From Pontederia crassipes (Eukaryota; Streptophyta; Magnoliopsida; Commelinales; Pontederiaceae), in NCBI GenBank assembly GCA_030549335.1, contig CM060196.1:17256501-17320500 (forward strand): a DNA stretch of 64,000 nucleotides, given 5' to 3'. Of the stretch, positions 9,543 through 48,700 are shown piece by piece. The first letter of the stretch is position 1. Each line of letters begins with the position of its first letter. The notes below the pieces were generated by a model. That model was given only the letters and a program-made list of their open reading frames with translations, was not told where the DNA came from and searched no databases. Both the position numbers and the translations under genes were made by a program.

Positions 9543-11003
9543 TCAATATACGTAAGGCACTGCAGCGATTCCCGCTACAGACGGCGGCGGGGGTGACCGC
9601 TTCACGAAGCGGCCCTTCATCCTCGGGCGCTTCTCGGCGTTCAGCTTCCGGACCTCGTACCGGATCTTCTTCGAGAAGAGCCGCGTCCGCCGCTTCTCTC
9701 GGTACCTCGTCACCTTCGCTTCCCGACCGCCGCCGTCGCCACCTCCCATGGCGGCGTGCAGGCCTGCTGATCCGTAGAGTGCCCCTTGGACGTCTCCTCC
9801 TCTACCTAACCACGTCCCCTATGAACACAGAGTTTAGAACAATTAATCGCCAGGCTACGCAAACAACGTGATCGAGCGCGTCAAGCATATGGCATGGCTG
9901 CTTACTGGTGATTCCGGCCAGCGGTCGTCTAGGCAAAACTGCGGGCGTTCGCCGCCCGTCCATGGCGAAGGCGAAGATCCGTTGGAAGACCAGGCGGCGA
10001 TGACCGCCTCGTAGTCCAGACGCAGTATCCTTTTCGACTTGATCCCCGTCAGCGCCACTGTTGCACCGGGAACCGCTTTGTGCTCCTCCTCGATTGGTCC
10101 CGTCGCCGTCGGCGACATGTATCCGGGTTCAAGGTCGAGCGCCTCCTTCGAGATATCGAACTCAACGTCCAGCCCACAGCACGCGACGTCCAAAGCCACG
10201 GCCTCCATCTTCACCTTACGTTTGTCGATAGCGTTCATGTCAGCTTCCAGCACATCTGACTCCATCAGAGCGAGCGCGTCGATGCAGAAGGCATCGTCGT
10301 CGAGGTTCTGTCCGAGCAGGCTCTCCATGTCGGCTGCGAACTCTTCGAGGTCCATGTCCGAGGGATGGAGCCCGGCGAGGCAAATGGCATCGGCGAGAGC
10401 GCAACCTCCGAGGCCACCGGGGGCAGCTTTGCAATCGAGCGACATCGTTTGCACCATCGGCTTGGTATCCTCCTGAGCCGAAGGGTATTCATCGTCGAGC
10501 GGGGCCGGTGGCGGGGAGCAGAACTCCGCGAGCACGGGGTCGAAAACCGGCACGCGATAAAGCAGCTGCTGCTGCTGATCGTCATCGTCTGAAAGCGACT
10601 CGAGGTCCGGAACGAGGGGCTCGGCCTTGGCGGCAGCCCCGGGCTTCCCCCTGGGGGTCCGCGCCTTTCGCTTGAACCCGTGAATCCAAGCGGGCTCTTC
10701 GTCATCCTCCGAGGCGCCCAAGGACAGGGGCGACGACGGCGTCACGGAGGGCGAAGAGGAGGGGGAGGAGGAGGAGGAGGACGCGACCTTGATGCGGACG
10801 CGGTGGTGGCGCCGCGCGACGGGGTTGGCGGAGTGGACGGACGAGTCACAGGGTTGACAGAGGAAGGCGTCGTCGGCGGCGCAGTACCAGCGGGCTCGCC
10901 ACTTGAGGCAGCCATCGCATGCCCTCGCCGTCCTTGCGCCAAGCGCTCCGGCTGTGGCCGCTGCCGCCTTCTGCTTCGTACCGACCGATTGGTGAGAGCT
11001 CAT
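9543..11003 (-). CDS. CONSTANS-like protein, one B-box plus CCT domain (COL16/COL6-like)
   Basis: Two exons: 11003-9906 (366 codons) and 9818-9543 (91 codons and stop), joined across an 87-bp intron (donor CCA|GTAAGC, acceptor TTCATAG|GGG, phase 0), giving 457 aa. Residues 29-67 are a single B-box with C29, C32, C41, D44, C49, C52, H57 and H66/H67 as zinc ligands. A conserved [16 protein letters not shown] segment follows near residue 107, then acidic and poly-Q stretches typical of a transcription activation region. Residues 399-440 are the CCT domain ([20 protein letters not shown] and onward), which carries the nuclear signal and contacts NF-Y proteins and DNA. One B-box, a divergent middle and a single intron before the CCT match the COL6/COL7/COL8/COL16 subgroup, whose members act in light, flowering or chlorophyll and branching control. 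The coding region is very GC-rich. It looks intact. Confidence 0.95.
9819..9905 (-). other. intron of the CONSTANS-like gene
   Basis: 87 bp with canonical GTAAGC donor and CATAG acceptor. Its position just ahead of the CCT-encoding exon is the conserved position in the COL family. The reading frame is kept only if it is removed. Confidence 0.9.
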
Positions 11004-11099
11004 GGTGGCGGTTCTCCAAGTGTTCGTTCAAATGCCTCGCCCTACTCTTCAAAAGTGGTTTCGCGTTAAAACCGCACAGTGGAAGGGCGCGCGCGGAGG

Positions 11100-24746: not shown

Positions 24747-27700
24747 TCATTGATTCTTCATAAGTAGATCCAGCAACAATATGCCGTCCTCCTTGGACTG
24801 GCCTATTCTCCAAACCTTGAAGTCATCCGGAAAAAAGCCTTTTGACCTCCAAACGGCCAGCGATTGCAAGTTAAAAGGCCCTTGTTCATTACCTTGAGGA
24901 TCAAGATAATTCCAAACTTTGTCCTCCGGTTCATCCAGAAGAATGATTGGTAGTGGTGATGCTGTCTTGGGACTTGGAACGGCATCATCTTTGATCTCAA
25001 TTACTGTAATGGCCAAATTTGGTTCAATTGGCTCAGGTGGCGCCATCTCTGTAACAGTCTCTGAAACAAAAACAAAAAGAAAAAAAAAAGAGCTCAATAT
25101 TCTAAGCATTCAGAATTACAGTGAACAATGTTTCATTGATTAATGCACATGCAGCAGGTTCTACAAAAATGATTGTGAATAATAAAAAATTTTCAGGACC
25201 AAGTGATTGGATATCTTGACTCCAACATCCGTTTCTCATTTTTTTGCCCACTCCATTTATTCCTTTTTTTGGTTCCTCTTTGCCAATCCTCCCAAACCCA
25301 CACCCCGGTGTCCTCATCATCTTCCTATCATAATCCCATTGGTAGCTCAGCAAGATGCTTCCGTCAATGTAAAAGTTCATATAAACATAAGCTTATTTTG
25401 GATAGCTTTTAGAGTGCAGTAGGATTTTTTTTGACAAAGGAATTAATTCATATTGTTTCTTCCAGATGTTAACAACAATCTTACTATTCTGTTACTTGTT
25501 TATTTTGAGTTAAACAGCATTAAGAAAAACTTAAATAACATCCACAGGTTCAACTGTCAATATTTGCAAACATAATTATGCAAGTCTAATTTGAAGCTGA
25601 CTCAAAATGAGCTAAAGAGAGCCCTGAGCTAAGGTTAAAGACAGAAACTATATGCCTCAAATCAAACAATAGTGATTTTGCTAAAACTAGTTAAAAGAGT
25701 TTTGGTTTCCAAAAGTTTTTGGATAATTTTGCATTTTTCAAAATAATTTTGGACAATTATGGTACAAGGCCCTTGCATACAAGCACACATATGTCTACTG
25801 TATATTGGATAAGACACCAAGAAAGGAAGAGAGTGCATTGATGTTTAAATAAACCTAAGAAAACTTTTTTGTTCTCGCCAAGTATTCATACTTCATTAAG
25901 TTACATCAATCACGACTAGTAAAAACATTAACCAAGCCAGGAACAAAAACTGTATCAACACGGTCCATCAATTATATATTCGGTGATAATGGAAACCTTA
26001 CACCAGTAAACTTTTTTTTTTTTGAGGAGATACACCAGTAAACCATCAGGACCAACCACATATCAGAACAACTGAGCCCAGTAATTGGCAATGCCTAATG
26101 CCAGTTCCATAGGGGCAACAAGTGTATGCCATAATGATCAACACATGTAACAGTAAACAACTCCTCACATAGTCAAACCATTTCCAGCAGGATCTATAAT
26201 GGTCGATTGGTCGTGATAGCCAATATCACATGCCATTTCCCACAAGAACTGAACCGACAGGATCTACAATGGTATATCGTGACAAAATGACACCGCATAC
26301 CAGTTCCCACAAGAACCAAACTGTTAAGTGTGTACAACTCAGTAGAAAAACTATAGCAACCAGGCTCGACTAGTTTATCCAAACTACTATCTAGACAGCC
26401 AATGTGGGTAAACACAATATATGAACTATTACTGCCAGCCTGACCAGTTCATCCAACCAGCCCCCTACCTAGAGCTATCATGAATAATTTACTATAAAGC
26501 ATTAACTACACAGTTCTATAACTAGAGCCTCATCACTTAGATATCAAAATTCGACTTATGACATAAATTTACTTGATCAACTCCCATAAAGTTAAGACTA
26601 TAAGACAATCCAAGTTCTCTTCAAACTCCAACTCTCCACTACAGTTCTGACGACAGTAAAGGAAACACACAAACTCTCGTGAATAGAGCTAAGCTTTATG
26701 CTTTTATAAAATCAAACGCCACTACAGGTCTCACTATGGACCAGAAATAAAAAAAAACCAACATAGATACAAAGACGACATGCAATACAGAGGATTCTTT
26801 ACAAGGTTCTAACACTACCATTGTACACCACTGATGAACAGCTTTCTTTGCACTCAAAAGGCAAGGCCCTGCAGCTCTCTACTTGACCATCAATCTTCAA
26901 TTGTTACTAAAACAGTGAGTGAAAGAAATTGATGAGTAATTGGCTTAAGAGAGAAGATTTCACATGTAGTTCTTAACTGTTTCAATGAATGGTCTTATTC
27001 ATTTCTCTTTTTTTTTTTTTTTGAAACAAGAAAGGACGACTAGCAAGGAGGTAGTCATCCGGGAGTTTCATTTTCATTAATGTAAAAAAGTTACAGCATA
27101 TTTTAGAAAGTAAAGGCAAAATAGGGTAGACAACTCCACCAGATTACTACTTTACCATCTTACAAATACTTTTTCCATTCCAAAAAGATTGCCTTAGAAT
27201 GGTACCCAACATTCTCAGCATAAACATGACCCTCCCAGAAAATGGCGTCATTCCTTTGCAGCCAAATTGCCCAGATATAAGCCAGGGGACGAGCTCTCTG
27301 ACGTCTGCAAATGTACACACATTGATGAAGGCCTCTGCAGCCATTGCAGAAAGACCTCCAAAAAGCTGTCTCTGAAGAAGAATCAATCCATCTGATATCT
27401 GCCACTGCCCAGATCTGGCGGGCCACCGAACACCCAAAGAACAAGTGGGCAGTATCCTCATTCGCTTCTCCACACAAGGCGCGGCGTCAGTGCCACTGGC
27501 CTAGCGTGATCTGTACACCTTAGTCAGGATTCTTTTTCGACGCAGAAACCAAGAGAAAACCTGCACCTTGAGTGGCGCCCTTGACCTCCAGATGACCACT
27601 CAATCATTTTTGAGGGTTAACTACTTAATCTCACTCAAATTGTATGCTCATGAGACTTGTGATATAGCTCTACCCACAATTAATTGCAATGCTCCAAATA

Positions 27701-30700
27701 TGAATGTTGGAAATCCTAGGTTTCAGTTTCTCTGTGTCCCATAGTTATGGGATTTGTTTTGCACATTTCTAATATGTTTGGGGTAGTGGTCTTATATACA
27801 TGTTCCATAAGAAGAAAATAATAAGATTTTTCCTACTACAATTTTCCACATGGTAGCCGAGCCCTAGCTCTATTACGGATTTCTTTGTTTCTGGCCTTTA
27901 TTGTTGTGAAACTTGCAGCCTTCATTTTCAAGGAATAATCTTTGTGCTCTTGAAAATACAGTATTACCTATTAATTGCGGTTCAAGATGTCGAAGATCAA
28001 GGAGACTACAATAACAATTCAGAAGAGATAATTTTAGAATATTCATGCTTCTTATATTGGTTGAAAATACAGTATTACCTATTAATTGTTGTTGTTGTAT
28101 TCATGCTTCTTATAGTGGTCACAACTCATTTTTATAGTGTTGAAAGGAAGGGGAAAGATTAGTCACCACATGAATATAGTTCCCACAAGTAAGAGGATCC
28201 TAACTTTGAAGCATGAGATGAAGAATTATGGCATGATTGTGTAGCTCTATGCGGAAATAAGTGATGCATGTTTACTACTGCAGAGGATATATGAGATGCA
28301 ATGCAACAAACTTATTTTGTAGCTAGAGATGCAAATCACGAATATGCGGTGAAGATGAAATTTAGTCTGCGAACCAAGGAAACAAGACAATTACTAAATC
28401 TGCAAATCATTCGAGTGATTCAAACAAAATGCTGAGATCATGCAGCAACTCTCAAGGAATTCTGGTTGAACAGTTGAATTTACTCCAAAATTTGATCAGT
28501 AAGGATAAAAAAACTCTTGGGATGTCTTGAGTTTCCAGGCTATAATTTACTGGCTCTAATACAATGTGAATAAAGTAAAGGAGAGGTTGATGCTTGAACC
28601 GTATGTTGCACAGATATGGGTACTGGTACGAGATTCGTCATTTTTTTTAAAACGAGAAAGGACGACTAGCAAGATGGTAGTCATCCAAAAGTTCCATTAA
28701 TAGTAGTAGAGATTACAAAAAGTTTGATAGAAAGGCCAATAGACTTCCATACCATGAACAAAAAGACAGCAAAACATCATTCTATATGAAAGATGGCCTC
28801 TGTATTCCATGCATTGTTGAACATCATTGCTCTTGCAACCCACCCTAAATTTGATGTGCTGACTAATTTTTCTAAAAGCTTAAGCCATTAGGAAGAGCAA
28901 CATCATAAATTTTATATTCTTAACACTCCCCCTCATGTGTGGGCTACTGACAACTTTGATTTAGCCCAGCCCGCCACGTGGACAACAAAGAGAGAAAAAT
29001 ACTTCTTTTTAATAAAAGCTTAACGAGGTTTGAACTTCTGACTCTGATACCATGAACAGTTTTTTTTTTAGAAGATACCATGAACAGTTGACAAGAGCCC
29101 ACACCGGTCATCCCATAATATGAGACCCCAATTTTCTAAGGAGGGCACAAATCATCCTTCAGAGATCGCAAGCCCAGAGGCCGCCCCTTGGAGATTCGTC
29201 ATTTTTTAAGGGGTACAGGTGCATATATATATATATATAAACACACACATACATGAGAAGTTATAATTTTCTCAAAAAACATTCGTAATTATTAATCAAC
29301 CAACCCTCAAAAAAATATTAATCAACCAGGAAAATGAATAATTCACATAAAGTGCTGATAATTTGAAAGTTATAGCTTAATGATATTTGTTAGATGGGCC
29401 CAGCAAAGCCCATTTGTATAAAACACACCCAACTAAAATGGAGGCATCTGAAATGAAGGCTGATGGTTCATTAGCTCCATTGCGAGGCTGGTGAAAAAAA
29501 ATGCCACAAGTGAACTGCTTCACCATGAAAAGGATGAAGACTAAAGGGGATCACTGGCATCTAGAAGGTTGTCCTCTGTCTCTCCGGCCATGATGGAGCT
29601 TTTTGAAGATTCCATTGAGAAGTGAGGATCCATAAAGAGCATTTGACAGCAGCATAAATTTTCCTTTCTCAGCTCTTCTTCCTCATTTCTGTGAGCGATG
29701 ACACCGTACCCACAGATACCAATTTGTTAAATAAATTTTATTGAATATCGGTGTGTGGTACCCATGCATACCCGTACCAGGTACATATCCAGTATGGTTA
29801 CTCTGGCCTCAAAGATGTTCCTGTGCATCATAGCTTGAACCACAAATCTATGATGTGATTGCGACAAATCAGACACAAACTTGGAGAAAGGAACAACATT
29901 TGGAGGAGAAAATGGTGATCAACAAAAACTCTCAAATCGTGATGGATTATAGTGTAGTACTGCAAATAGTCTCACCACACTCATGAAGAAGCTTCTTGAG
30001 AAGCCACTGAGCAAACAATGGAGCCAAAGAGGAGGTCAACGAATTTATGGACAAATCCACATTGCTGCATGCACGAAAACAACACTAGAACCACATGAGT
30101 TGAGTGGTCTTAATCAAATTGCGTAGTCCTAATAGTCTTGGAAAATTTGAAGAATCTGTTTGTACTTATTCATAGATGCATTCAGGTGAGTTTAGCAAAG
30201 TTTTGCCAATATTTTGTTCCATGATTAACGATCAATTTGGCGTAAAAAATAAAATAAAAATATTAGGGCAGGTAATGGAAAGAGATTATTTTAATTAGAT
30301 ACTGATTAATAGTTTCATAAACAAGGGATGATATAGAAATATTCTTGTGCTAATACTCACAACAGAATGGGATAGCAGAGATGAAAATTATGATCTTCAT
30401 TGGAAGATCAGAGTTTATTATTTGAAAAAAACTTGCCCACGTTTGGGAAGAATCAAATCTCACTCTTGTTTGCCTTCAAGAGTCTTGAATTTTAAGAGAC
30501 ATGACAAGGAATTGGTCCATGTGCTGTTGGACAGTGATGCGAGAATATAGAGAAAGTATCCAAAATAAAATGTGGATACATGCAGTTAGGCAATCAGCTC
30601 GTACAAGCTGCCATAAATCAAAATAGTGTCCAAAGGGTAAAACATTTACACCCATGATTCATGAAAACCATAGATATATAAATCAAGATGCTAGAAACAA

Positions 30701-33700
30701 ATTCAGAATTAAAGGAATGGGACAATTATAAACATTAAGAATGATAGTGATGCTTACAATTGCGGATTTCAAATAAGAATATGTCAATTGGATCTTCTAA
30801 GCCAGGAGAATCATGGAAATTATGGACCTATTAAATTTAGATCACTATTTTCTTTTAGAAGAGAAATTGATATCACTATTAATATACATCAATCTATCAT
30901 CTGATGCATAACTAATTTTGAGTGCATCATCTGGCAACCTGCCAACTGTTTTACAAGAACAAACATTACAGGAAATGACTCCTAAAATTGAAAGAAAGAA
31001 AAATAAAAGTGCTGCAGCCGGGCGAGACAGGTGGCCGCACACACCCTTCCAGAGGGCAGGAGGAAAGTGAACCTGCCCTCCTTTTTGGCCGACCAGATGC
31101 GGAGGTCCGGGGGGTTGCTGACCTGGTGGGGTTCAGACTTGTGCGCCGCCACCCATATCCACGTCCGGGTGCTCCTCAGCGGCCCTGGCAGTGCACCGGC
31201 CACTGCAAAGATTCTATTTGCTTACACGAGGGGGCATAAGGCAGAGGACAGCTGTGGGTAGAGTTCCACCCGCACGAGGGATGGTCATTGTTTCTTTATG
31301 AAGGTGTTAACATGGAACGTATGCAACCTCGGTGAAGAGGGGAGACGTCGAACTCTCGGCCCCTATGTACACGAGTGGGATGCTGATGTGGTATTCTGCA
31401 GGAGACAAAACTCATGGAGTGTAACTCAAGGATGTGGGAGCAAGTAGGTAGCTCCCAGCTCACCCAGCACATCGCACTCGGGTGGTTGTATCATTGGCTG
31501 GTTGTATCATGTTGGGTCGTTCGGATGGTTGTATCATTGGCTGGCGAGCCGATCTGTTCACCTTGGAGGACTCCTGGATAGCTCGTTTCTCGCTGACCGT
31601 CCACCTGAGACACGGCACAGATGGACGTCTAACCTTCTCTCCTGCGTATATGGTCCTTGTTCGGGGTCCCTCCGGGCTGCCATGTGGGAGGAGCTCACGG
31701 CCGCCTGTAGGCACCTTCCAAACGCCCGATGGCTGATCGGAGGCGATTTCAATGTCATACTTGACATGGAGGATCGTCCCAACATGCGGCTGAGGAGAGA
31801 CATTGGTTCTGAGGAGTTCAGAGATTTCATTGATTCTCAGTCGTTGTCCGACTTCCCGGCGACGAACTATAGATTCGCTTGGCGGAGCACAGAGGCACCT
31901 TCATCCAGACCACGACTTGATAGATTTCTCTGCTCTTTGGAGTTGGTCGAGTCGCACCTGCTTGCGGATGTTCGAGCCATGGACCGACTGTTTTCGGACT
32001 ACACACCCCTTTTGTGGAGGTCCAATGACAGTCTTTCGCTTTGAGTGCTCCTGGCGTTTAGAGGACGACTTCAGACAGATGGTGGCGGAGCACTGGCATA
32101 GTGTGGCAGCCTCGGACTCCGCCATAAGGACTCTTGCCTCCAGGCTTCACAGCTTGAGGGGCTTCCTTTTGGATCGCCATCGAGGCACGGCAAACCGAGG
32201 CATTGGAGGTGATTGCCCAGCTTGATCGGAAGGACTCCCGCCACCTCACGAAGACCGAGGTGGCGCGGCACATACGAGCTTAGGACACCATCCAGTTGGA
32301 GGATAGGAAGGTGGAGATCCAGTGGAGGCAGCGCTCCCGTGAGACTTGGCTTCAGGAGGGAGATGCCAACACTTAGTTCTTTCATCTCTATGCGAGCTCA
32401 TGCCGGCAGAGGAACAGAATTGACCAGATGGAGGTGATGGGGCAGAGGATCATGGGCCACCACCGCATCGGGGTTGCCATCACCTCCTTCCATCGAGACT
32501 TTTCTAGGCGGCGGGGGTCGCCGACTTGGAGGTGGTCTCCCAAGGGTATGCTTGTATTACTGATGATCAGTCTTCCATGTTAGTACAGACCATTTTCGAG
32601 GAGGTCACCGATGCGCTTCGAGACCTCAATGGCGAGGGGTCTCCCGACCTAGATGGCTTTCCAGTTTTCTTTTATAAGGAGTTCTGATCCGTGATGCGTG
32701 AGGATGTCATGGCAGTGATCTAGGAGTTCTCTAGTGGGAATCGGAGCTTTGAGCGCCTGAACCGGTTCTTGCTGATCATACTTCCCAAGCACACCCCAAC
32801 AGAGAGAGTGGAGGATTTCAGGCCGATCGTTTTATCCAACGCCTTCTACCTCTTGGTGGCTCGAGTATTGGCCAATCGGCTCCGAGAGGTGCTCCCTTGC
32901 ATCATTCACCCGGCACAGTCAGCATTCATTCCGACAGTTACACCATAGCTTCAGAGATCATCGCACATTGGAAGCAAAGTAGTCGACGAGCCTTCCTCTA
33001 GAAGGTTGGCTTCTCTAAGGCATATGACTCCTTTCTTTGGTCCTCTTTGCAAGTTAGGGGTTTCCTGCAAGTTAGCGGTGCATCACTACTGCCTCATTCT
33101 TGATCCTAGTCAACAGATTGCGGGGGCCTGGGTGCAACCACAGAGGGGAGTTCGACAGGGGTGCCCCCTCGCACCCATGCTATTTACATTGGCAATTGAT
33201 GGCCTCGTCAGGTGCACTCAGGAGGCATGCCAGGCATGCCACGGTTGGTACCTTTTCTACAATACGCTGATGATATAGTCTTCTTTGTGGAGGGATCGGA
33301 GCAGGAGGCCAAAGGGATGGCCATTCTGGTGGATCTTTTTGGCCCAACGTCGGGTCTCGAGATCAACCATGCCAAATCCTCCTCCATCCCATTTGGCATG
33401 GTCACGGAGGATGCTCTAGGTTGCGCGGCGGCGCTTTGCACACCGGTCGGCGCCTTCCCGATCACTTATTTGGGCCTCCCCCTCTCGGATCGTCTATAGG
33501 TTCTCGGAGGTGGACCCCAGTTATCAAGCATTTGGTGCATAGACTTCAAGGATGGAGCTCACAACTTCTATCGAGTGGTGGTCACCTTATACTGTTCCGT
33601 TCAGTTCTCTCATCCCTCCCGATAAACTTCATGTCAGTTCTTCGGATGCCTGCCCAAGTATTGACTCGGATTGATTTTTTGAGGAGCAGGTTCTTTTGAC

Positions 33701-36700
33701 AGGGGTGTAGTTCTACTCGGCGGGCTCATTTAGTGGCTTGGCAGTGCATATGTAAGCCCATCTCACAGGGTGGATTGGGCATCCGTGACCTACGCACCAC
33801 CATCTGGGCACTCCTTGCCCAATGGATAGGATGGATTATGGTGCCTGAGGACAGTCTATGGAGAGAGGTTTCCTTCACATGTTATGGCCGAAATCTTTCA
33901 TGGAGCTCCAGACCTATCCCACCTCGAAGCGCATCTTCCTTTTGGAGAGGTGTGGCGGCGCTTTTCCCCCTAGTGTGCCCCTTTATGACTTCATCGCTTG
34001 GCTCCGAGGAGTTTTTCTCCTTTTGGTGGCATGATTGGTCACCTAGGGGCTCCTTAGCAGAGTCCTTCCCTCGACTGTGGGCCTTGACACATCCTGATGC
34101 ACTGCGGCTGAGTACTGGTCTAAGAGTGGCGTTCCGAGCACTAGTTCCTAGACTCCCCTTTTTAGTTCTCTCTCTGACCGGCAGTTTTCTAAGTTATTAG
34201 CTTTTCATTAGAGGATTGCCCCCCTCCGTCGGGACCCGGCGCGGGCTGACGGTTGGATATGGATTTCGACTCATTCATGGCACGTAGCCTATATTTGCAC
34301 CATCTTCCAGCTACCACAGAACCTGATGACTTCGGAGCTGATTGCAAACTCATCTAACGTTCTCGAGCGCCGTTGAAAGTCAAGATCTTTGCTTGACTTC
34401 TGCGGCGCGAGCGGATCCTCACCAGAGTATACAGGGCGCAATGGGCACCCCATGCAGATTGGTCCCGCACTTTACGCGGGGAGATGGAGGAGGACGTCGT
34501 TCACTTATTCTTCAGGTGTCGTGTGGCCCGAGAGGTTTGGTCTCAGACATGCATTGTGGACTTCTGGCAGACCTTGAGGGGACTTGGCAGATAGAGACAA
34601 GGCTGGAGAGTTCTATTGGCGACATTTTTGGCTAGTGCCTGGGCCATCTGGCTACAACGCAACCATGTTATTTTTTGTGGGGAGAGATGTCAGGTGGATA
34701 ATATTGTACATCACATCTTTTGCCTTATCCGGGAGTGGGTTTTGAGTAGTTCTTGTACTCTATTCTCTTTTTGCTGCTCTCTTTTGGAGAGCATACCTTA
34801 TGTACAGTGCCTCTTTCTAGTGATATATACATGGATGACAACCAAACTTGGTAGTCATTCTTTTTCCTCTCAAAAAAAAATTTCTTGAAATTCAATGATC
34901 AGAGGTTATACTCCAGTAAAAGATAATCCAGCATAAAGTTTTTTTTGGGGAGGAATCCAGCAAAAAGTTAGATAGGAGATCGTACAAAAAAAATCATGTA
35001 GAGAATCATATGATGGCATTGGACCCTATGTTGCAAAATCATAGACATTGTCAAAACTTAAAATATCTAAAAGTTAGGCCAAGAAAACAATGTGTCACCT
35101 TGAGATGCTTCAAATGTAGATTGGTCAATGGATACTGCTTCATTGCCTGATGTAAGTAGATAAATATGTTTGAGAAAGTAGACTCTCTAATTAACATCTC
35201 AGAATGAACCTTACAGCCAAGTATGCCTGACCTTCAGATCCAGCTACAACAGCATTATCAACGTGGGGAACTTCATTTCCTACAATATGACGCGATAGTT
35301 AAATATTCATTGCCTACTAAAAGTAGATAAATATGTAGCAGAAAGTAGCCTGTGTAATATTTGTATTAGCATATAATCATATATGCCTAACCTTCAGCTC
35401 CAACAAGCAGAGTGTTCTCAACATTGGAACCTTCGTTTTCTGCAATATGATCCAAGTGTGATATATATGGTTGCATTTTTCAATATTTTACACATTATGC
35501 AAACACTTAAATGTTGTAAGTATGCTAGCCATATCAGTGGTATCACAATTTACATTTGCCTATGTTTGGCTAGCTTAATACTTTAAAAAAATTCAGTTAA
35601 CTTAATGACCCAAGTTTTCTCTGATATTAGCTCTAAATATACTCTTCCGTTGTCAAATATTGAGCTGCAACTATGTTATAAATGCAAACTAGGTCTTCTC
35701 CAGAAAATTTGCATTTCTAAAAAGATCAATAGAAACATTTCGACATCAGATATTTTCTTCCCAGTTTTATCAAATATCTCCAAATATTGGTTTGGGACAT
35801 AAACATACAAGAATGTCTACATAAAAGCGGATGTAAAATTTTAAACTTTATTTTTCTTTGGCCTACATCAAGGATCAGCTTTAACCTCGTATCTATTTAA
35901 CTTAGTTATCGATGCTATAACCGAGAGTATCACAGAGGAGGTACCTAAGTGCATGCTATTTGCGGATGATATAGTACTTTTAGCGGATTCAAGAGAAGAG
36001 ATTAATACAAAATTGAAAATATGGAGAAATACGTTGGAGTCAAAGGGTTTTCGTTTAAGTAGGAATAAAACAGAATATATGCATAGCAATTTCACAAATA
36101 AACAACTTAGAGACGATTTGAAAGTTAGGCTAGGGGAGGATATAATTCCTCAAGTGACAAAGTTTAAATATTTAGGATCAATTGTAAGACAAGATGGTGA
36201 GATTGATGACGATGTTAATCATAGAATTCAAGCTGGTTAGTGTAAGTGGAGGAAAGCCACTGGAGTTCTTTATGATATAAAAGTACCCAATAAAGTTAAG
36301 GGAAAATTCTATCGTACTGCTATAAGGCAAGCAGTGTTATATGGTAGTGAATGTTGGGCTATGAAGGGACGGGCAGCTGAAATAAGGATGTTGAGATGGA
36401 TGTGTGGTCATACAAGATTAGATAAGATTAGGAATGACCATATACGTGAACGAGTCGGAGTGGCTCCTATTAGTGAGAAAATGGTAGAGAATCGTTTGAG
36501 ATGGTTTGATCATGTTCAGAGAAGACCATTAGATGCGCCAGTAAGAAGAGTAGATCAAATAATCTGGAATCCGATTAAAAGGGGAGAGGGAGGCCAAGGC
36601 GGACACTTGGCGAACTAATAGAGCAAGATCTATTGGTGAATAATATACCGAAAGGTTTGGTTACTAATAGAGCGGAATGGCGTCGTATGATCCATGTAGC

Positions 36701-39700
36701 CGACCCCACCTAGTGGGATAAGGCTTTGTTGTTGTTGTATTACCCTAGTGTACACGTGTGGATATATTTTATTTGATATATGACCTAACCTACTAAACAA
36801 ATCAGTTAACATGCTTAAAAGGGCTTAAAACAAAATTGATCAAAGTGGCAACTAATCTTAGTCGCTGAACTCTCCCACCTCCCGTAGGTGTCATTTATTC
36901 ATTTTACAAAAAATACTTGTACTTTACCCAACATAGACACCTTCAACAACTCAAACTAGAAGATTCATTGATTTTGTTTATTTTCTGCAATTCTAAGAAT
37001 TCAAATATATATTTATAATTTTATTTCAATGAGGGAATAAAAAGACCAAAAGACATAAGATTTGGGTTTCTCGAACTGGCCTAACCCGGATGCCTACAAA
37101 ATTTTTTTTTTTTGAGAAGTAAAAGGATGACCAGGATGTGTGGAGAGCCACGGGGAGGACGGGCTACGCGATGTTCGAGGATGGTCCGTGGGTTGGGCTG
37201 ATGTCAGTGGAGGCAAAGGTGTGGGAGGTGGGGGTGGATGCCAGCCGCCAGAGGATGGTTAGGCACCCCTGGGCGGTCAGAGATGAGGAGGAAAGGTGTG
37301 ATGTCTGGGCTCGGGTCAGAGATTCAGACCGAACTCGGTGGTTATTTGACTAGGGTGTGGTGAGTGGAGGTGTGGTTCTGGCGCAGCAAAGGATCTTCGA
37401 GAAAGATGGAAGACACCGAGACAAGGATAATTGGGGCTGAGATACTTGCGAATCCTCGCACAATTAGAAACAATGAAATTTGATGGATGTAACCTGTCTT
37501 CTTTTCTATTGATCCTCATTTATATAATGCTTACATCCAGAAAAAGGAACATACTATTTTTTTTTTTTTGAGGAGAAAAAGGATGACGGACCATTTTGGT
37601 TGTCATCCGTATATATATAGATCACTATGAAGGAAGATCATATACATGTGGTGACGCACTCTCCAGCGGAGAGTGGCTAAAGTGAAGCATACAAAAGGTG
37701 CAGAGCACTATCCAAAACCCCAATCCCGTAGTAAACACAAAATGTGATGCATAATACAATCAATCCGACATCTCTCGCACCCAAAAAATAACTCGGTTGC
37801 GCTGAAGCCAAATGGCCCAGGCACCGCCAAAAAGGTCGCCATGGAGGCTCTCCATCTCTGTCTCTGTCTGCCCAATCCCCGCATAGCCTGCCAGAAACTC
37901 TCGGCAGCTGGCGAAATCATATCAACGATGCTCGTCTGGGACCACACCTCTCGGGATACCCTACATCCAAAAAATAAATGAGACACATCCTCCTCCATCA
38001 CCTCACATAAAACACAAGAGGTGTTCAACTGTGCAACCCATCGCGTTGTATATGCTCTGGTGAGGATCCGTTCACGTCGAAGAAGCCAAGCAAAAATCTT
38101 GACTTTCAGTGGGACACGTGATCGCCAAATAAGTCTGCGATCTGCGATGAGGTCATCCGGCACAGAGATAGTCGGGAGAAGGCGGAGGTAGAGGCTCCGC
38201 GCTGAGAAAGAGTCCGACATCCAGACCCAACCGTCCGGCCGAGATGGATCCGGACGGAAAGGGGCAATCCGCTGATGAAGTGCCAAAAACTCCACAAAGC
38301 GCTGATCTGAAAGTGGAGAGCTGAAAAGAGGAGTCCAAGAACCCGTGCCAGGGCTGCCCCTCTCTGATCATGACTCAGCCACATATGCGTCTGGGTGTGC
38401 AGCCAAAGCCCATAAACGGGGAAAGGAGCCAGCAAGCGAGCCTCCAGGCAACCAATCATGCTGCCAGAAGGAAAAAGCCTCCGCGGATCCAAGTGATGGG
38501 CTCATAAAAGGGCGTACTCTGGGGAGTATAGCCATCACTCCCCTCCAAAATGAGGATGCACCACGCGGTAGGATAGGCCTAGTGTCCCATGATAGATCAC
38601 GATCGTAGCATGTGAAGAAAACCTCCCGCCATAAGCTGTCCTCGGGCCCCATAATCCGACCCACCCACCGAGCGAGGAGCACCCGGTTCGTGGTGCGGAG
38701 GTCCCGAACACCCAAACCGCCCTGTGATATGGGTCTGCATATACAACTCCATGCGACCAAGTGAACACGACGAACGGAACTACATCCCTGCCAAAAAAAT
38801 CTGCTCCTCAAAGAATCAATCCGTGCCAATACTTGCGCGGGCATCCGAAGCACCGACATGAAGTAGATCGGAAGTGATGAAAGAACAGAACGAAGCAGAA
38901 CAAGACGGCCACCGCTGGAGAGGAGCCTCGAGCTCCAACCCTGAAGTCTATGCTCAAAACGCTCGATGACTGATGTCCATCCTCGAGAGCCAATATGACA
39001 ATCAAAGAGGGGAAGCCCTAAGTATGTGATCGGTAAAGCCCCCACCGGGGTGCGAAGCTCAGCCACACAACTCGTAGAAAGCTCTGCCTCCATGCCAAAG
39101 GGGATAAAAGAGGACTTGGCATGATTGATCTCAAGACCAGATGTCGCGCCAAAGAGCTCCACCAGAATGGCCACTCGCCTAGCCTCCTATACTGACCCCT
39201 CCACGAAAAAGATAGTATCATCTACGTACTGAAGAAGAGGTACCAGTCCACCGGCGAAACCCCTGAAAAGACCGGCCTGACAGGCCTCCAGTGTGCATCT
39301 GGCGAGCCCATCAACAGCAAGAGTGAAAAGCATCGGCGCAAGGGGACAGCCCTGCCGGACACCCCTCTGTGGCTGCACCCAACCTCCTGCCATCGTCCCA
39401 TTGACCAAGACCGAGAACGAAGCCATGGTGATACAACGCTTCATCCAGGTGATCCAGGTCGCCGGGAACCCTCTGACCTGTAGTGAGTGCCACAAGAAAG
39501 ACCATGAGAGAGAATCATAAGCCTTAGAAAAATCAACCTTCCATAGGAAAGCCTGATGACTGCCCCGTCGCCAATGTGCGAGGATCTCGGAGGCCATGGT
39601 GTAAGTGTCAGTGATGGATCGCCCCTGTATGAAAGCCGACTGTGCTAGGTGGATGAGGTCAGGGAGCACCTCGCGGAGTCGATTGGCCAATACCCTAGCC

Positions 39701-42700
39701 ACCAAGAGGTAGATGGCATTGGATAAGGCAATCGGTCTGAAATCCTCCACCCTCTCTGTCGGAGTGCGCTTGGGGAGCATAAATAGTAGAAACCGATTGA
39801 GGCGCTCAAAGCCTCGATTACCATCCGAAAACTCCTGGATCACTGCCATAACGTCCTCACGCACCACTGACCAGAACTCCCTGTAGAAAAATACTAGAAA
39901 GCCGTCTGGGCCGGGGGAACCCTCGCTGTTGAGGTCCCGAAGCGCATCGGTGACCTCGTCCTCAGTAATAGTCTGCACTAACATGGAAGACTGAACGTCA
40001 GTAACACAAGAAATATCACTGGGATACCACCTCCATGCAGTTGGGGGCCGTCTCCTAGAGAAGTCGCGATGGTAGGATGCGATGGCTGCTCCAATATGGT
40101 GATGGCCAGTGATCCGCTGACCCCTCACCTCTAGCTGATCAATCCTGTTTGCCCGCCGACGTGAGCTCGCGAATAGGTGGAAGAACCGGGTGTTGGCATC
40201 ACCCTCCCGAAGCCAGGTCTGCCGAGAGCACTGCCTCCATTGGATCTCCACCAACCTGTCCTCAAAGAGAATGGTCTCCTGAGCCCGCCTGCGCAGTGCC
40301 ACCTCATCATCCGTAAGCTGACGAGAGTCCTCTCGATCCAATCGGGTGATCCTCTCCAGAGCCTCAACCCTCCGTGCCTTACGGGTCGCTCGAATCTGGC
40401 CCCGACGCTCCTGTAGGAAACCCCGCAAGCTATGGAGCCTGGAGGCCAAGGTCCTCGCCGCCGAGTCCGAAGGCGTCACACTCCGCCAGTGCTCAATCAC
40501 TGCCTGTCGAAAACCATCCTCCAAGAGCCAAGAGCGCTCGAAACGAAACATCGAGCATAGGGCCTGACCATCGTTGGACCTCCACTGGAGTGGTGTATGG
40601 TCCGAAAATGGTCGGGCCATGGCCCGGACGTCCGCGAGCTGATGTGCCTCGACCAGCTCCAGTGAGCCAAGGAATCTGTCCAATCTCGATCTGGATGAGG
40701 GTGCCGCAGTGCTCCGCCAAGTGAATCTGCAGTTCGTTGCCGGGAAGTCGGACAACGACTGAGAGTCAATGAAGTCTCTGAACTCCGAAGCTCCAAGATC
40801 TCTCCCCTGTCGCCTAATGGGACGATCTTCCATGTCTAACATGACATTGAAATCGCCCCCAATGAGCCAACGAACATTCGGGAGGTGAGATCGGGCAGCA
40901 ATGAGCTCCTCCCACATGGTCGCCCGAAAGGACTCCGAGCAAGGGCCGTAAACGCAGGAGAAGAGGTAAGAGGAGCCATCGGTGCTGCCTCTCAAATGGA
41001 CTGACACCAAGAAGCGTGCAGTCCACGAGTCCATCAAAGTGAACTGCTCGGGGCGCCAACCGATAATGCAGCCCCCCGAGCGCCCCACCGAGCATAGTTG
41101 TAAGTGCTGTGATAGCCGCTGTCCCCCAATCTGCTCCCACATCCTCGAGGTGCACTCCACTAACTTTGTTTCTTGTAAAAACACCACATCGACATCCCAC
41201 TCCCGCAAGTAGCGGCCGAGTGTTCGCCGCCTTCCCTCGTCGCCGAGGCCGCGAACATTCCAGGTCAGTACCTTCAGAAAGAAACAGTGGCACTCCCTCT
41301 TGTGGGCGATCTCCTGCCCACTGCTGTCCGCCTCCGGAAGCTACATCGAGAGAATAATAGAAATCGCAAAGGTGGCCTATGCGCTGCAAGTGGCCGCCTG
41401 GAAGGGCCAGGTCGCTGGTTGGGGCGACGATGGATGAGCCTGAACCCTGCTGTGTCCGCAATCTCCTGGACATCCGCATCTAGATGTCCATCAAGGAGGG
41501 GTGACCCACTGGCCGGCTGATCCGCTCCTGGATAGGTCGCAGCCGGTGATGGAGGCCGAGCTGCAGACTGTGGAGATCCCTGCCCAAAAGGAACATACTA
41601 GAAAGGACATAAACTAACAAGGAAACCAACTAAGCAAGGAAATGACTTGTAAAAGGAAACAAACTACTGAAAATCAGCAACCAATAAAAGGAATATTTGC
41701 TAGGCTACATTGCCTACAAATATTCATTCTGTTGCAGCCTTAATTGCGACGTTATTGCCTTGATTTTCTACCACATTATGGCCTTGTTCTGCATCAGGTT
41801 CGAATAGAGGAAACCTGGCCCGAGTGAAGGAATGACCTGGGTCAGGCTGTGGAGGAGCGGGAGGTGTGTGTTTGGGCTGTAGGAGGGGCGCGGCCTTGGT
41901 GAGGTGGGGGCTCGGGTCGGGCTGTGGAGGGGAGGAGGTTGGTGGAGGCACGGCCCAGGTGAGTAGGTGACCTGGGTTGGGTTGTGGGAGAAAAGGGTGG
42001 GGTGGGGGTAGTGGTGGGTGAGGGTTGGTTTGAAATTCTTCCAAGAGATGCATCCCATCCCTTGCGTCACCCAGTCCCGAGTCGCATCTCTGTACCACTG
42101 TCAGCGTTGTCTAAGACTGTACTCGCATACGGACCCGCCCTCTGCAGACAACCCGGCAGACGCCCGCCTAGACCCAGCGGATACACGCCTGAACCCCGCA
42201 GATGCCCGTGTCAACACCAGCAGCCGGCCTGCTACCACGGTTGCCCATGACATCCCCACTTGTTGAGCCTGGAGGGTGATAAGGAAGCTGGATTCCTTCA
42301 CCCGCAGCATCACCGATGAAGGTGGCCTACAGCTCGCCGATGGTTCCACCTCAACCAAAATTGCAGACAGATCCGGCGACCCAGCGACTGGGATCGCGAT
42401 GGCAGTGGGGTTGCCAAAGCTATGGAGCATTGCCGCGACGATGTCCAGCCGGGTGAGGTGAAGGGGGGGACCTCAGAGATGTACCATGTATTTCGTCAGC
42501 GGCGGCAAAGGTTGCGCTCCGTCATCTTGCCACACTCGCCAGCTCACACTGCCACCAGAGGGCAGCTTAGAGGGGGTAGCAAGCAAAGCATTTCTTTGCT
42601 GGGGAGAGCCCGGAACCAGAAGCCACAGTTGAGGAGGTAAGCGGCTCAGGTGGAAAGGATTGGACGGCCCTACCAGTTCCTCGTCAATGGTTAGAGACAT

Positions 42701-45700
42701 CCTAGATGACTCCCTGATTACGCAACCCTTGAGAGCATCCACCACCCCTGCAGTTCTGGTGGCCAAGGAATGGAGATGGTCGGGTTCGCTGTGTTGCTGG
42801 TCATCAACAGGAACACAGTCGGTGGGAGCACAACCGAAGAGGCCAGCCCAGAAGCTGTGTGGATGGGTCGCGCACACTCGGAGTGACGATATAGGTGGTC
42901 GTCGCCCAGGAATTTGTAGCACTGTGTACCGGGCAGCTGCTGAGCAGCCGACCACTAGCAACAAGGTGATGAGGGAGCACGTGAAAACGCCGACCACCCA
43001 TCACCCAAAGCCTGGAGTCTTCGACGCATGATGGTGGGTGGTGGCGCAAAGAGGGTGGTTCCGCTGGCAGGGCAGCCGGAACGGAGCGTGGCGCCGCCGA
43101 CAGGGGTCGCTGGAGACTGAGCGTGGCGCCGCCGGCAGCCATGGATGTGTTCGCCTTGCGAAGATTGTACCGACTCAAGTATAAGAGTATAAAGATCTTA
43201 CATAGGTAAAGAGAATGAAATGTTCGTAGAAAAGGAGAGAAGCTGCCTACAATGACAACTTAAAAGTTTACAAGGAAAAGTTTGAAACATTTAAGTCCAT
43301 ATACTGATGACTTTAGGAAAGCCATTAGAGACATTTCTGTGCAAGACAACAAAAATTGTTTGGTCCCCTCAAAGCATCTCACAAAAATAGATGGCCACAT
43401 GATTCTCTCTTGCATTTCAGGTGCTCATTAACAAACTTGTGCATGACAAACCAACTTAAGCAAAAGATAAAGATCATTTGTAACTGTAAAATATTACAAT
43501 CTAAAGAATTATGTACAAAACAATAGAGAAACTTACTTGAATCCATCTCAATTTCGCATGTATCAGCAATAACTTGTGGAATCTTTTGAAGGAGAATAGA
43601 TCTTTCCTCAGATGTGCATAATAGATTCTTTTGCTCAATATATTCAAATAATGTAACTCAAGAAAAATGGTCAAGGTGAAACTTAACAATAACACTAGGT
43701 CAAATAAATTGATAAGCCATGTATATGTTAAATTAAATGAATGTATATTTCATGCTTGCATTACATGGGTGAAGGATATTCTTTGCGCCACCCCTTTTCA
43801 TTTGCTCTATCAATCAACCTCTGTAGCTTCTTAATCTCTCTTTCAATCCACTGAAGAAAAGCAAATATGAGTTCATACCACATTAAAAGACAAAGAACAA
43901 ATATCTAAAGCGTGGTCACAAAAGAAAATTTTTTTCCAAGCATCATCGCACCTAAAAAATCACAAAAAAAGGAACATGCGTTGTCAACCACCCTTCTATG
44001 CCCAACATAGGAAGTAGCTGATGATTGTTGATATCCTTAATTTGAGTGTCTTTTACATCAACAGAATAGGTGCAGAATAAAATAGTTTAGGTAACTGATT
44101 AATAACGTTTGTTGTTTTATGGCATGGACAAGATATCTAAATCCATATAGGCATGAATACATGATACTCACATGATTAGTTATATCAGCATGAATGCTTA
44201 TAATCTTCTCTTCCATCTCTTCCTGACAAAACAAGGTCATATAATACCATTGTAAGTTTCTTTTTTCTTTGTGACAGTACCACGTGACCATGAGAGAAGA
44301 AACTTACAATGGTCGGCCGTTTTAGGACACCTCTCTTGACCAGTTCGCGGAGATCTTCACACTCTTCCTATTAATAAACATAATGGAAAAAGTTGTAATC
44401 ATCATTTGAATAATATTTTTATATAACCAAGCTACAACGAATATGCATATACATTAAAAAATGAATTATCTTTCGGACGACATAATTAGGCACTCCTAAA
44501 AGACAATCAGACATTTTAAGGAAGAATACTTTAACTCAATCAAGTAAAACTTTCAGTTCACTTCAGTAAAAGTTACAAATAATAGAAAGTTAGATAGATT
44601 GTTCTGTGGCGTCCACAGGCACTGAGATTTTTGTCTATATATGGCCTCCATAAATACCTATGAAGCACGGGTACGACAAAAACCCTGAAGTACCCGTACC
44701 CGGTACGTACCGGGTACGGGTACACGTACGGTACGTATGGGTACGCCTTCCTTGTCTTAAAATAGAGTTTGCAAATCACAAAAATGAAAGAAGAGAGAAG
44801 CCAAAGAAAAAAAAAGCAAGAAGAAAGAAGACAGAAAGGTGAGAGAAGTAACAAAGGGTTCGGCTTACCAAAAAAAGGAGCGAAAGGTCTGGAGAACAAA
44901 AAGAAAAGCTGGCAACTCAAAAGTAGACGTTAGCGCTATAATTTTATTTTATTTTTCTGATAACAAGACTTAATGCTGTAAACTTAATTAGGATTTTTAT
45001 TTGCTGTCCTAATTAAAGGCATAAAAAATTAAATAATATGATGTGACGAATTATTTTATATTAATAGAAATATGATATCTCTTTGCAAAATAGTTTTATT
45101 ACTTATTATTATGGCTTAATTTATTATATTATATATAATTTTTTATATAAAATTTATATTACATATAACGTACCCGTACCCTAAATTTTAAGAAATTTGC
45201 GTACCACGTACCCGTACCCGTACCGGGTACCGGTACCGTACCCGTACCTATGCAACATAGATAAATACTTGTACATGATTATGAATTGAAGTTTTAATAC
45301 AAACCAGGATGATTACCAAGCTTAGCAGTTGTTCTTTCCTTCATCAAAAGAAACAATAGAAGAATTCTCTTTTTCGGTTTTACTTTATAAAGTAGAAAGA
45401 TGAAGGATCATACCTCTTCAAAGTCTTCATCAGACAACATGGATACCGGAATATCCTTCCACATATTAGAGACACATAGAAGCACATCAGTGGAAATTTC
45501 CCCCATCTTATATGTTTGTGAAGCCTTTTTAAATCCTGTCGTGAAGAATTATATATCACTTTGGTATGAGAAAAGGGAACCATATGTCTAGTTTAGCCTA
45601 TTAGAAAATTGACCTAACCCAAGACGGATATGCAACAGGGTGAAGATCATAATTGACTTCATATTTTCTACAAAATGGCTGACTACCCAATGTTTGTAGC

Positions 45701-48700
45701 ATCCTTCCCCCCTCCATAAAAGAACTTCATATCTCTACTCTCCACATTCATCTATATAAGATCTAGAAACACTCCCCGGCAGAGAATGAATTGGTGTATG
45801 CACTCATATTTCAAGCAAAAAAAAAATCTCTATGAATGCTATCCTTCCCTACCAGAAAAGAACTTCAATAGAATGGAAAAGTGCATGACAATATGCCTAC
45901 AAATCAACAAACCTGTCACTTGTCCCAGCTGGTACATCTTCTGTGGTAGATAGTAGAGTTCTTTTGGGTCATTCTTCACACGCACAAAGCAACCGGCTAC
46001 CTTGCTTTGGAAAGACTCTGAGCCTTTTAAAAGATTTATCACTAGAGATCTCCTCATATATACTGCCCGGATGTTTTGTGCAACTAAGGCAGCATATGGA
46101 CTTTTAGGCAGTATAGGCTCTTTTTCCGAACCGTCATCCGGAGATTGGCAAATCTTGATATCTGAGTTTGTGCGTTTTTTTCTTGTTCTCTCAGATAAGT
46201 CATCGTCATCTTCTGAACTTAAAGTGAAGCCATCTGAGTCATCATTTTCAGCAAAATGCTGTTTCAGTAAGCTGAATATCCTGTGAAATTTCAGTTTCTT
46301 CCTTCTGAACAGTGAATATAATTTATCATCACATTTTACAACTTTTTTCTTCTTGTCGGGATCACAAAGATTGTTTGCACGGATATATTCCTTAATTATC
46401 ATACAAGCATCCAATTGCGTTATAGTTTCTTTAGTATCCTCTCCAATAGATGTAAGAAATGTTATCAGTTCCCTTGAACCCCAGCCGATAAATGTCTTCT
46501 TTTTCTTCGACAAGTACCTTTTTGTCGTCTTTCTCCTTTTATAAGGCGTCTCTTTCAAGTCATTGAGAAATGAAATCTCTTCATCATAGTTACTTTTCAT
46601 GGTATCACATTCAGGCACATCCTCTTCAGGTGGCCAATCAGGATCAGATTCATGACTATGTTTTTTACCTCTTTTTAGAAGAGCACTTGCTGCATGAACA
46701 TCAATTAGAGTCAACCCTTCTTGTTCCTTCGCTATTGTCCAGTAATCCTTGAACAAAAATTCATATGTCTCTGCATCACTGAAATCTATCTTACCCTGAA
46801 AAGGATCATATAATTGAAAATAAGAAGAGAAAATGTGCATCTATGAATCTCATCTACCTTACAGTACTAAAGGTGATGAAGTAATGTAATTGTTCTGAAA
46901 GAATAGCATGTTCTCTAGAACGTAAAACATAATCAAGACAATGAGAGCAAAAATATATGCATGTAAAGCAAAGTCCATATGCTTGATACAAGCGCAACAC
47001 TTTTACTATAGAATTAAGGAGCCTCTTGATAAACTAAGATGCCAAAAAATAGAATCAGATATTTCTCTAATTAACATAAATGTCATAAGAATTGTACCCC
47101 ATCTGAATCAGCATCAATGTTTTCTTCTATTAGAATCACCAACTTTAAGCACTCACTACAGAAACCCTTTCCCTTTTTCTTAATTTGCACAAACTCGGCA
47201 TCCTTTATACACTGCTGGCATAGTGACTTTGGACAGCAGTAACATTGAAATACTGAACTCTCTGAGCAGAGAAAACATGAGTGCCAACCTGTCACATAAA
47301 TGATAAATAGGAAAAGCAATAAGAGCTAAATTTTAAAGGATAAAAGAAAAAATTGTGTCAGTGATCACTCGAGAACCATATATATTGAAAACGAGAGGGA
47401 TATATATTTGCATGCAACCTAGACGAAAGAAGCTGGTGAGTCTCATCAATAAGTAGATAGAAGAACAGCAAGATTTTTATCACGCAAAAGACAAAATCCT
47501 CTGCTTTTGTGCATATTAATACCCGAAAATATACCTTCCTTAAAATGAAAAAAAGGCAATGCCCTTCAACAATCAACTTTTATTAAGAGAAGCATTAGAT
47601 TAGTTACCATCTTTTTATCCCTTGAACTACCCAAATTGAATCATTTGGATTCACAAGTCTTTTTACGGAAAGATTTCTGGCATTTAAAGTTTGACAACTG
47701 ATTATTTGAGGACTTAGGTACACTTACCACAAGTCCAACGGTCATCTGTCTCCAAGAATGAAGGATCCTTGTTAACACATTGAGGATGATAAGCCTTAAG
47801 GCAATTCCTAAGAGAATGGAAATAGCGATCTTTAGTTCTATACTAAGAGCAATAAATGCTAACACAAAATGCTAACGAATATAAGTTTTTCATCAAGGTA
47901 AATGATCAAATGAAGATCTGATGAAGAAATGAACGGAACATCAGGAAGAATCAATGGAACAGCTGTGCAGTGTATGGAATATAGAAACAATTAATGGTAT
48001 GGACTATGGAACATCGCAATGGAGTATAGCAATCAAATGATCTTTGCACAATTATAGGCTGCTTGAATAATGTAAGGAGTAAAGAAACCAGCATTCAATG
48101 TAAAATGTCATCAAAATACTGGAATTATATTTTTTTTTCTTAATAGGCCCTTTGTGTTTCTTTGTTTTTAACTCCGCCTATGTTTTATAGCCGGTCCCAA
48201 GCCCGGATAAAGGAGGAGGGTTGTGTTAGGCCCCGACAGCCGGCGTAAAATTCTGTCGAATCTTATGAACATGGATCAACGAATAGAATGACGTCGTATG
48301 ATCCATGTAGCCGACCCCACCTAGTGGGATAAGACTTTGTTGTTGTTGTTGTTGTTGTGTTTCTTTGTTTTGAAGGGGGAAGTCTTTACTCTCTTTATCA
48401 CATTGCATTCGATTCCATAGTTTAGCTTTCCATAACTAACTCAGTCATCATCGTTCTTATCCAATTACTAATATTTGATTCTTGAGAGCATCTTATCCAA
48501 TTAATAATATGCTTGCAGTTTTATCATTTTTTGAATGAACAGCTAATATCTAGAATTTATCTTCTCTTCAGATGCATAAAAAAATATTGGAATTATATTT
48601 TTTTCTTAATAGGGCCTTTGTGTTTCTTTGTTTTGAAGGGGGAAGTCTTTACTCTCTTTATCGCATTGCATTTAATTCCATAGTTTAGTTTTCCATAACT

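Follow-up and report, generated by a model that had tools for sequence, protein, structure and literature searches.

A plant chromatin protein gene of Pontederia crassipes carries three consecutive 48-nt exons between its Plus-3 and GYF domains, and the locus raises the question of how such an array arose and whether its members are all included, selectively spliced or only partly in use. It lies in a stretch of 64,000 nucleotides (positions 17256501-17320500 of contig C14; hereafter the window) from an assembly of 1.13 Gb. The genes and transposons of the window are of plant type. We found no relative when the whole protein was compared with GTDB genomes and viral contigs, nor when its first 551 residues were compared with plasmids.

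Gene model and anatomy of the mini-exons

The 13-exon model on the minus strand keeps a single frame open throughout 703 codons. Each Pfam domain scored over its cut-off: PHD_NSD at residues 11-56, SWIB at 231-298, Plus-3 at 358-460 and GYF at 649-687. The order PHD, SWIB, Plus-3 and GYF is that of the ZMP-like plant proteins, and judged by this domain set the predicted product is a ZMP/NERD-type chromatin protein. The nearest solved plant structures are 1v32 (SWIB) and 1wh2 (GYF of At5g08430). The main features are listed below; identities refer to a second gene on C13, which is described further on.

24747..49557, minus strand: coding span of the PHD-SWIB-Plus-3-GYF gene, 13 exons, 703 aa
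45913-46795 and 45414-45535 (span 45414..46795), minus strand: exons 4-5, SWIB and most of Plus-3
43653-43779, minus strand: intron 8, 127 nt, AT-AC, presumably U12-type, frame kept
43537..43652, minus strand: exon 9, which precedes the array and ends in phase 1 (gene model)
35392..35439, minus strand: mini-exon A (exon 10), 48 nt, phase 1-1, 48/48 identical in the C13 copy
35280..35391, minus strand: intron A-B, 112 nt, in part a duplicate of intron B-C, 112/112 identical
35232..35279, minus strand: mini-exon B (exon 11), 48 nt, phase 1-1, 46/48 identical
35147..35231, minus strand: intron B-C, 85 nt, 85/85 identical
35099..35146, minus strand: mini-exon C (exon 12), 48 nt, phase 1-1, likely the older copy, 46/48 identical
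24747..25060, minus strand: exon 13, with the remaining linker, the GYF domain and the stop codon (gene model, Pfam)

The initial annotation had described three exons of exactly 48 bp, all of phase 1-1, and the gene model agrees in coordinates, lengths and phases. A, B and C are each flanked by AG and GT, and introns 9-12 are GT-AG in every case. Each mini-exon encodes 16 residues (jointly residues 552-599), and at 48 nt each falls within the size range of micro-exons (51 nt or less). The proposal that members could be skipped or multiplied without loss of frame was borne out: with lengths that are multiples of three and equal phases at both ends, as in a symmetric cassette, all eight inclusion combinations remain open and give proteins of 655-703 aa. 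The encoded segments had also been called acidic. An acidic excess is present but mild, with nine acidic residues and one basic among the 48; the 106 residues from 12 before A up to GYF contain 23 acidic and three basic ones. A charge-hydropathy index placed the 48 mini-exon residues on the disordered side, and the same crude index called the 46 residues between C and GYF 'ordered'.

Intron 8 was read as AT-AC because the frame is kept there and not in the GT-AG readings tried. Its ends, ATATCCTT after exon 8 and TTTCTTGAGTTAC before exon 9, are identical in the C13 copy, and by the consensus we take it to be U12-type. The motif RTATCCTT occurs seven times in the window (both strands). A GT donor for exon 8/9 (CCCAT/GTAATG) was rejected since it breaks the frame: three AG acceptors lie 40 nt or more downstream, and with none of them is the conserved frame read without a stop.

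Several other features share the window:

9855-11027, minus strand: frame of 390 codons whose B-box zinc finger scores slightly over the cut-off, in a stretch common with C13; presumably CONSTANS-like
~15.8-20.6 kb, minus strand: Ty1-copia element whose gag-pol frame has 973 codons, terminal stretches alike by eye
~31.0-34.86 kb (plus strand), 35.85-36.75 kb (plus strand) and 37.6-41.35 kb (minus strand): LINE-type remains in introns 9 and 12, bounds by eye

The LINE-type remains matched endonuclease and reverse transcriptase, in one case below the cut-off. They enlarge introns 9 and 12, which measure 8.1 and 10.0 kb, and the mini-exons sit in an island of ~1 kb between the remains.

Homology among the copies and order of the duplications

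Mini-exons A and B are identical at 33/48 nt, a level reached by none of 20000 dinucleotide shuffles; B and C share 26/48 (4/20000 shuffles as good) and A and C 23/48 (32/20000). As a control of real sequence we used 7297 AG-anchored windows from the same 64 kb, compared in fixed register. None was as good as the A-B pair. For B-C, one was as good against B and none against C; for A-C, the counts were 14 and 8. The encoded peptides were compared with 3311 open controls, which equalled the A-B match in no case, the B-C match in no case and the A-C match twice. When 40 nt of upstream intron were included and gaps allowed, 5 and 8 of the 7297 controls did as well as A-C, and 14 and 54 did as well as B-C. 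Chance 48-mers taken from the whole window without the AG anchor reached 26-27/48 at best, which is the level of B-C. On this comparison of sequences A and B are a homologous tandem pair. C is likely homologous to both, at modest strength, and is best seen as an old copy that is tied in via B. We found no further exon copy in the window, as the array accounts for every one of the 15 best-scoring AG-anchored stretches.

The introns had been described as recognisably duplicated. This applies to introns A-B and B-C, which align locally at 54/71 positions with three gaps (0/500 shuffles as good), but not to the intron after C, whose similarity to the two inner introns did not rise above shuffles (314 and 168/500 as good). 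Nor did the flanks upstream of A and downstream of C resemble the cassette introns above shuffles (80-314/500 as good).

The A and B copies belong to a head-to-tail tandem duplication in which 35466-35306 aligns with 35306-35139 at 117 of 161 identical positions, with three gaps, all intronic. The duplicated unit of ~165 bp takes in 27 nt ahead of the exon and, at its other end, the first 8 nt of exon C:

35306..35466, minus strand: tandem unit 1, comprising 27 nt of intron 9, exon A and intron A-B up to the relic (117/161 against unit 2)
35139..35306, minus strand: tandem unit 2, comprising the tail of intron A-B, exon B, intron B-C and 8 nt of exon C (from the alignment)
35306..35315, minus strand: relic at the duplication junction in intron A-B, an acceptor AG plus 8 nt (GCAATGAA) resembling the start of exon C

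Neighbouring exons and introns are thus both homologous (117/161; 54/71), as in tandem exon duplication. Since intron A-B contains a relic that resembles the start of C, C or its forerunner predates the separation of A and B. Use of the relic acceptor would add 34 nt and lose the frame, as read from the sequence.

We infer an older B/C duplication from this order. An old tandem duplication would first have produced the ancestor of the A/B exon and the ancestor of C. A later head-to-tail duplication of ~165 bp, ending inside the C-like exon, would then have given A and B and also left the cut exon start within intron A-B. The term 'triplicated' would thus better be replaced by two successive duplications (older B/C, later A/B), in place of one triplication. 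Because all copies are 48 nt long and of phase 1-1, each duplication would have been tolerated and would merely have lengthened the tether. Harmless in this sense, the array could have grown without selection for growth.

Gene copies, gene-free fragments and selection

A protein search of the genome gave at least 39 matches. A second gene, at C13:37887576-37919726, has all 13 exons at 95.8-100% nucleotide identity, encodes 703 aa with one terminal stop and has unchanged splice dinucleotides in all 13 exons. It keeps A, B and C, so that 6/6 mini-exons are intact over the two genes. Twelve blocks in 40 kb of its flanks (30 downstream, 10 upstream) align with the window, 11 of them at 84-95% over ~18 kb and the twelfth at 71%. 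These shared blocks indicate that the C13 copy is a segmental or homoeologous duplicate; an allelic haplotype would be the less likely alternative.

C13:37876001-37952000: duplicate of the window region, from the flank blocks; intron 12 is longer, 15.9 kb by coordinates

The other relatives bear less directly on the array. A gene copy at C4:30519968-30524667 matched exons 1-8 only, with seven gaps in exon 4; exons 9-13 were unmatched in the 30 kb examined and there was no GYF match among the matches listed. This locus is probably a truncated pseudogene and uninformative on the array. Five more distant relatives lie on C10, C9, C14 (at 62 Mb), C6 and C7 (at 17.6 Mb). A GYF match was present in four of the five, within open frames of 463-957 codons compared with 120 here, and their linkers appear to be located in long exons.

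A 247-nt probe of the array matched the genome at five places: C14, C13 and three others at 75-80% identity, C8:41267499, C7:35179251 (C7a) and C7:35187147 (C7b). These three span ~10 nt downstream of exon A, a relic-like stretch, B, C and the start of intron 12; exon A is absent from all of them. No other exon of the gene was detected by blastn in 20 kb around the C8 match and 30 kb around the C7 matches, or by tblastn in the 30 kb on C7; tblastn on the 20 kb of C8 gave one match, with an E value of 0.44. We presume that the three are gene-free fragments and can serve as neutral controls. In C8 and C7b, not in C7a, the array gives way within ~200 nt to sequence that matches window positions 30670-30502, beyond a LINE there. 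The three fragments have 1-2 kb in common. Fragment exon B compared with C agrees at 26/48 nt, with 0/50000 letter shuffles as good, in keeping with the likely homology of C.

Only three of the six exon copies in the fragments (B and C of C8, B of C7b) retain an AG, 48 open nt and a GT. In C7a, exon B has 47 nt and has lost the frame, and exon C lacks the AG at its acceptor; in C7b, exon C has no donor left and its AG is shifted by one base into the exon. Because 6/6 mini-exons are intact in the genes and 3/6 in the fragments, the exons appear to be retained in the gene by selection, which would act on splicing and frame more than on residues, although with such small numbers this is suggestive only. 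In a neutral simulation with rates from the cassette introns, which makes no correction for our having chosen an intact case, A and B both stayed intact in 2767/40000 runs (7%), or in 7754/40000 when indels were ignored. If C is assumed to be homologous, as the simulation does, all three stayed intact in 6 (deeper C) or 64 (shallower C) of 40000.

The residues themselves appear to be under little purifying selection. Exons A and B do not resemble each other more closely than the introns do (33/48 versus 54/71, Fisher 0.41), and dN/dS was 0.48 for A-B, 1.14 for A-C and 0.96 for B-C, at 15 codons each. C13 and C14 differ in the mini-exons by four nonsynonymous and no synonymous changes, compared with 13 nonsynonymous and nine synonymous in the remaining coding sequence (Fisher 0.26). 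With the fragments as outgroup, 2/2 exon B changes fall on the C14 side and 2/2 exon C changes on the C13 side. Exon B of the gene compared with C8 and C7b gave pN 0.30-0.41 and pS 0.18 (C7a was excluded for its frameshift), and exon C compared with all three fragments gave pN 0.26-0.34 and pS 0.09-0.14. We do not claim positive selection on exon B: at the 12 differing sites, exon A agrees with the gene at seven, with the fragment at two and with neither at three, and therefore the fragments changed more in B. At the exon C sites polarised in the same way, A agrees with the gene at three, with the fragment at three and with neither at five, which favours neither side.

The cassette introns behave differently. 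Introns A-B and B-C do not differ between C14 and C13 (0/197 nt), compared with 83/2219 nt in eight other intron stretches, namely introns 2, 3, 4, 6, 7 and 8 together with the last part of intron 9 and the first part of intron 12. The chance of this is 0.0005 (Fisher 0.0015), for a difference that was noticed post hoc and mainly in one gene pair. The three exons changed at 4/144 positions (Fisher 0.03 against the cassette introns). Compared with fragment C8, the cassette introns differ at 32/176 positions, exon B at 17/48 (Fisher 0.017 against the introns; 0.07 with C13) and exon C at 12/48 (Fisher 0.31). There was no clear difference between exon B and the start of intron 12, which differs from C8 at 34/128 (Fisher 0.27).

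Use of the array and its relation to known systems

The reading we favour, and hold to be rather probable, is that A, B and C are genuine micro-exons, normally included, which act as 16-residue tether spacers in an array grown in two steps. The segments would as a rule be included and form a mildly acidic, probably disordered spacer between Plus-3 and GYF; since the duplication, selection would have kept frame and splice sites while residues drifted. We infer in this the inclusion of A, B and C in the mRNA, the tether function of the segments and the selection that keeps the exons. An array produced by chance resemblance or misassembly is very improbable. C is just 23-26/48 like A and B, where unanchored chance 48-mers also come close, but for A-B chance is refuted by the shuffles and the real controls (0/20000 and 0/7297), and the arrangement is repeated on C13 and partly on C7 and C8.

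The initial annotation had read the array as a cassette that tunes linker length by splicing or copy number. Frame-safe skipping stands; copy number does not vary in the one gene comparison available, as C14 and C13 have equal numbers of mini-exons. Regulation by splicing, with tissue-wise single or joint skipping that yields proteins of 655 to 703 residues and a varied Plus-3-GYF spacing, is possible but on the whole unlikely. Conserved introns flanking an exon are a mark of regulated exons, and the invariance of introns A-B and B-C is the only support for regulation besides the eight in-frame combinations; it was, however, seen post hoc in a single pair of copies. Donor and acceptor strength is ordinary: the U1 duplex energies of the A, B and C donors (-6.1/-5.9/-6.6 kcal/mol) are like those of the other eight U2 donors in the gene, which run from -4.6 to -11.0 kcal/mol. 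RNA folding of the cassette was no better than that of shuffles (z -0.05 for the whole, -1.22 and -1.29 for the two inner introns). The only Rfam match, mir-92_2, scored 23.2 bits where the gathering score is 70 and was taken as chance. The stronger proposal that the array is a regulated length adjuster, in which the two inner introns hold splicing-control elements and are more constrained than the exons they part, exon residues drift and linker length, not sequence, is selected, seems doubtful to us. We also think it improbable that some exons only are used, the rest being open remains of duplication, or that the exons are mutually exclusive as in MAF1. Such partial use would suit the weakly constrained residues and the dead relic already within intron A-B, and open 48-nt AG-GT stretches are common: of the 71 stretches of this kind in introns 9-12, 36 are open when read in phase 1, among them A, B and C. 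Yet frame and sites are kept in both gene copies, where half of the fragment exons are broken. The plant intron minimum is about 70 nt; introns of 112 and 85 nt exceed it and allow normal removal, so there is no steric reason for exclusion. We saw no sign of an exclusion mechanism, whether steric, U2/U12 or through RNA structure, in these GT-AG introns with their shuffle-like overall folding.

The locus is a compact natural record of protein linker growth, in which two ordered duplications and a cut exon at their junction are preserved. The same genome offers two intact gene copies and three gene-free fragments, the latter as presumed neutral controls. If the array is regulated, Plus-3-GYF linker length would be directly testable in a relative of DNA-methylation proteins.

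According to the portions of PMC9699677 available to us, the land-plant ancestor of ZMP-like proteins is inferred to have had the four-domain set including GYF, the rosid ancestor of ZMP lost GYF, and ZMP (AT5G63700) is a partner of Pol IV with an influence on both siRNA biogenesis and DNA methylation. The protein described here resembles these in its zinc finger/PHD, SWIB and Plus-3 domains and, unlike rosid ZMP, keeps GYF; those portions do not mention a mini-exon array. The Vanilla GYF family has 10-22 exons, with no such array in the available text (PMC13132833), and none of the papers listed in our literature search dealt with an array of this sort in a gene of the ZMP/NERD type. Plant micro-exons are defined as 51 nt or less in PMC6600660. 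The 48-nt exons are under this limit and differ in forming a tandem duplicated array, of which there is no example in the text available for PMC6600660 and PMC12409088; the word 'tandem' is absent from that of PMC6600660. In MAF1/FLM, as far as the excerpt of PMC3266260 goes, one of two mutually exclusive small exons of 19 and 15 residues is chosen. Both are cases of small plant exons in a regulator, but here joint inclusion is in frame and an exclusion mechanism was not seen.

Tandem exon multiplication in a plant chromatin protein is already published, and the closest precedent is CENP-C (Cenpc) in grasses. As described in the sections of PMC549713 at hand, exons 9-10 and 11-12 are tandemly multiplied there in a poorly conserved middle region, with triplication in rice and with older duplications nested with younger ones. 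The peptides from exons 9 and 11 are acidic, the exons come in pairs with 25-38 residues per exon, copy number varies among species and positive selection is reported. The array described here resembles this in its place in a plant chromatin protein and in its old and young layers of duplication. Unlike the CENP-C exon pairs, it consists of single 16-residue exons, present in equal number in both gene copies.
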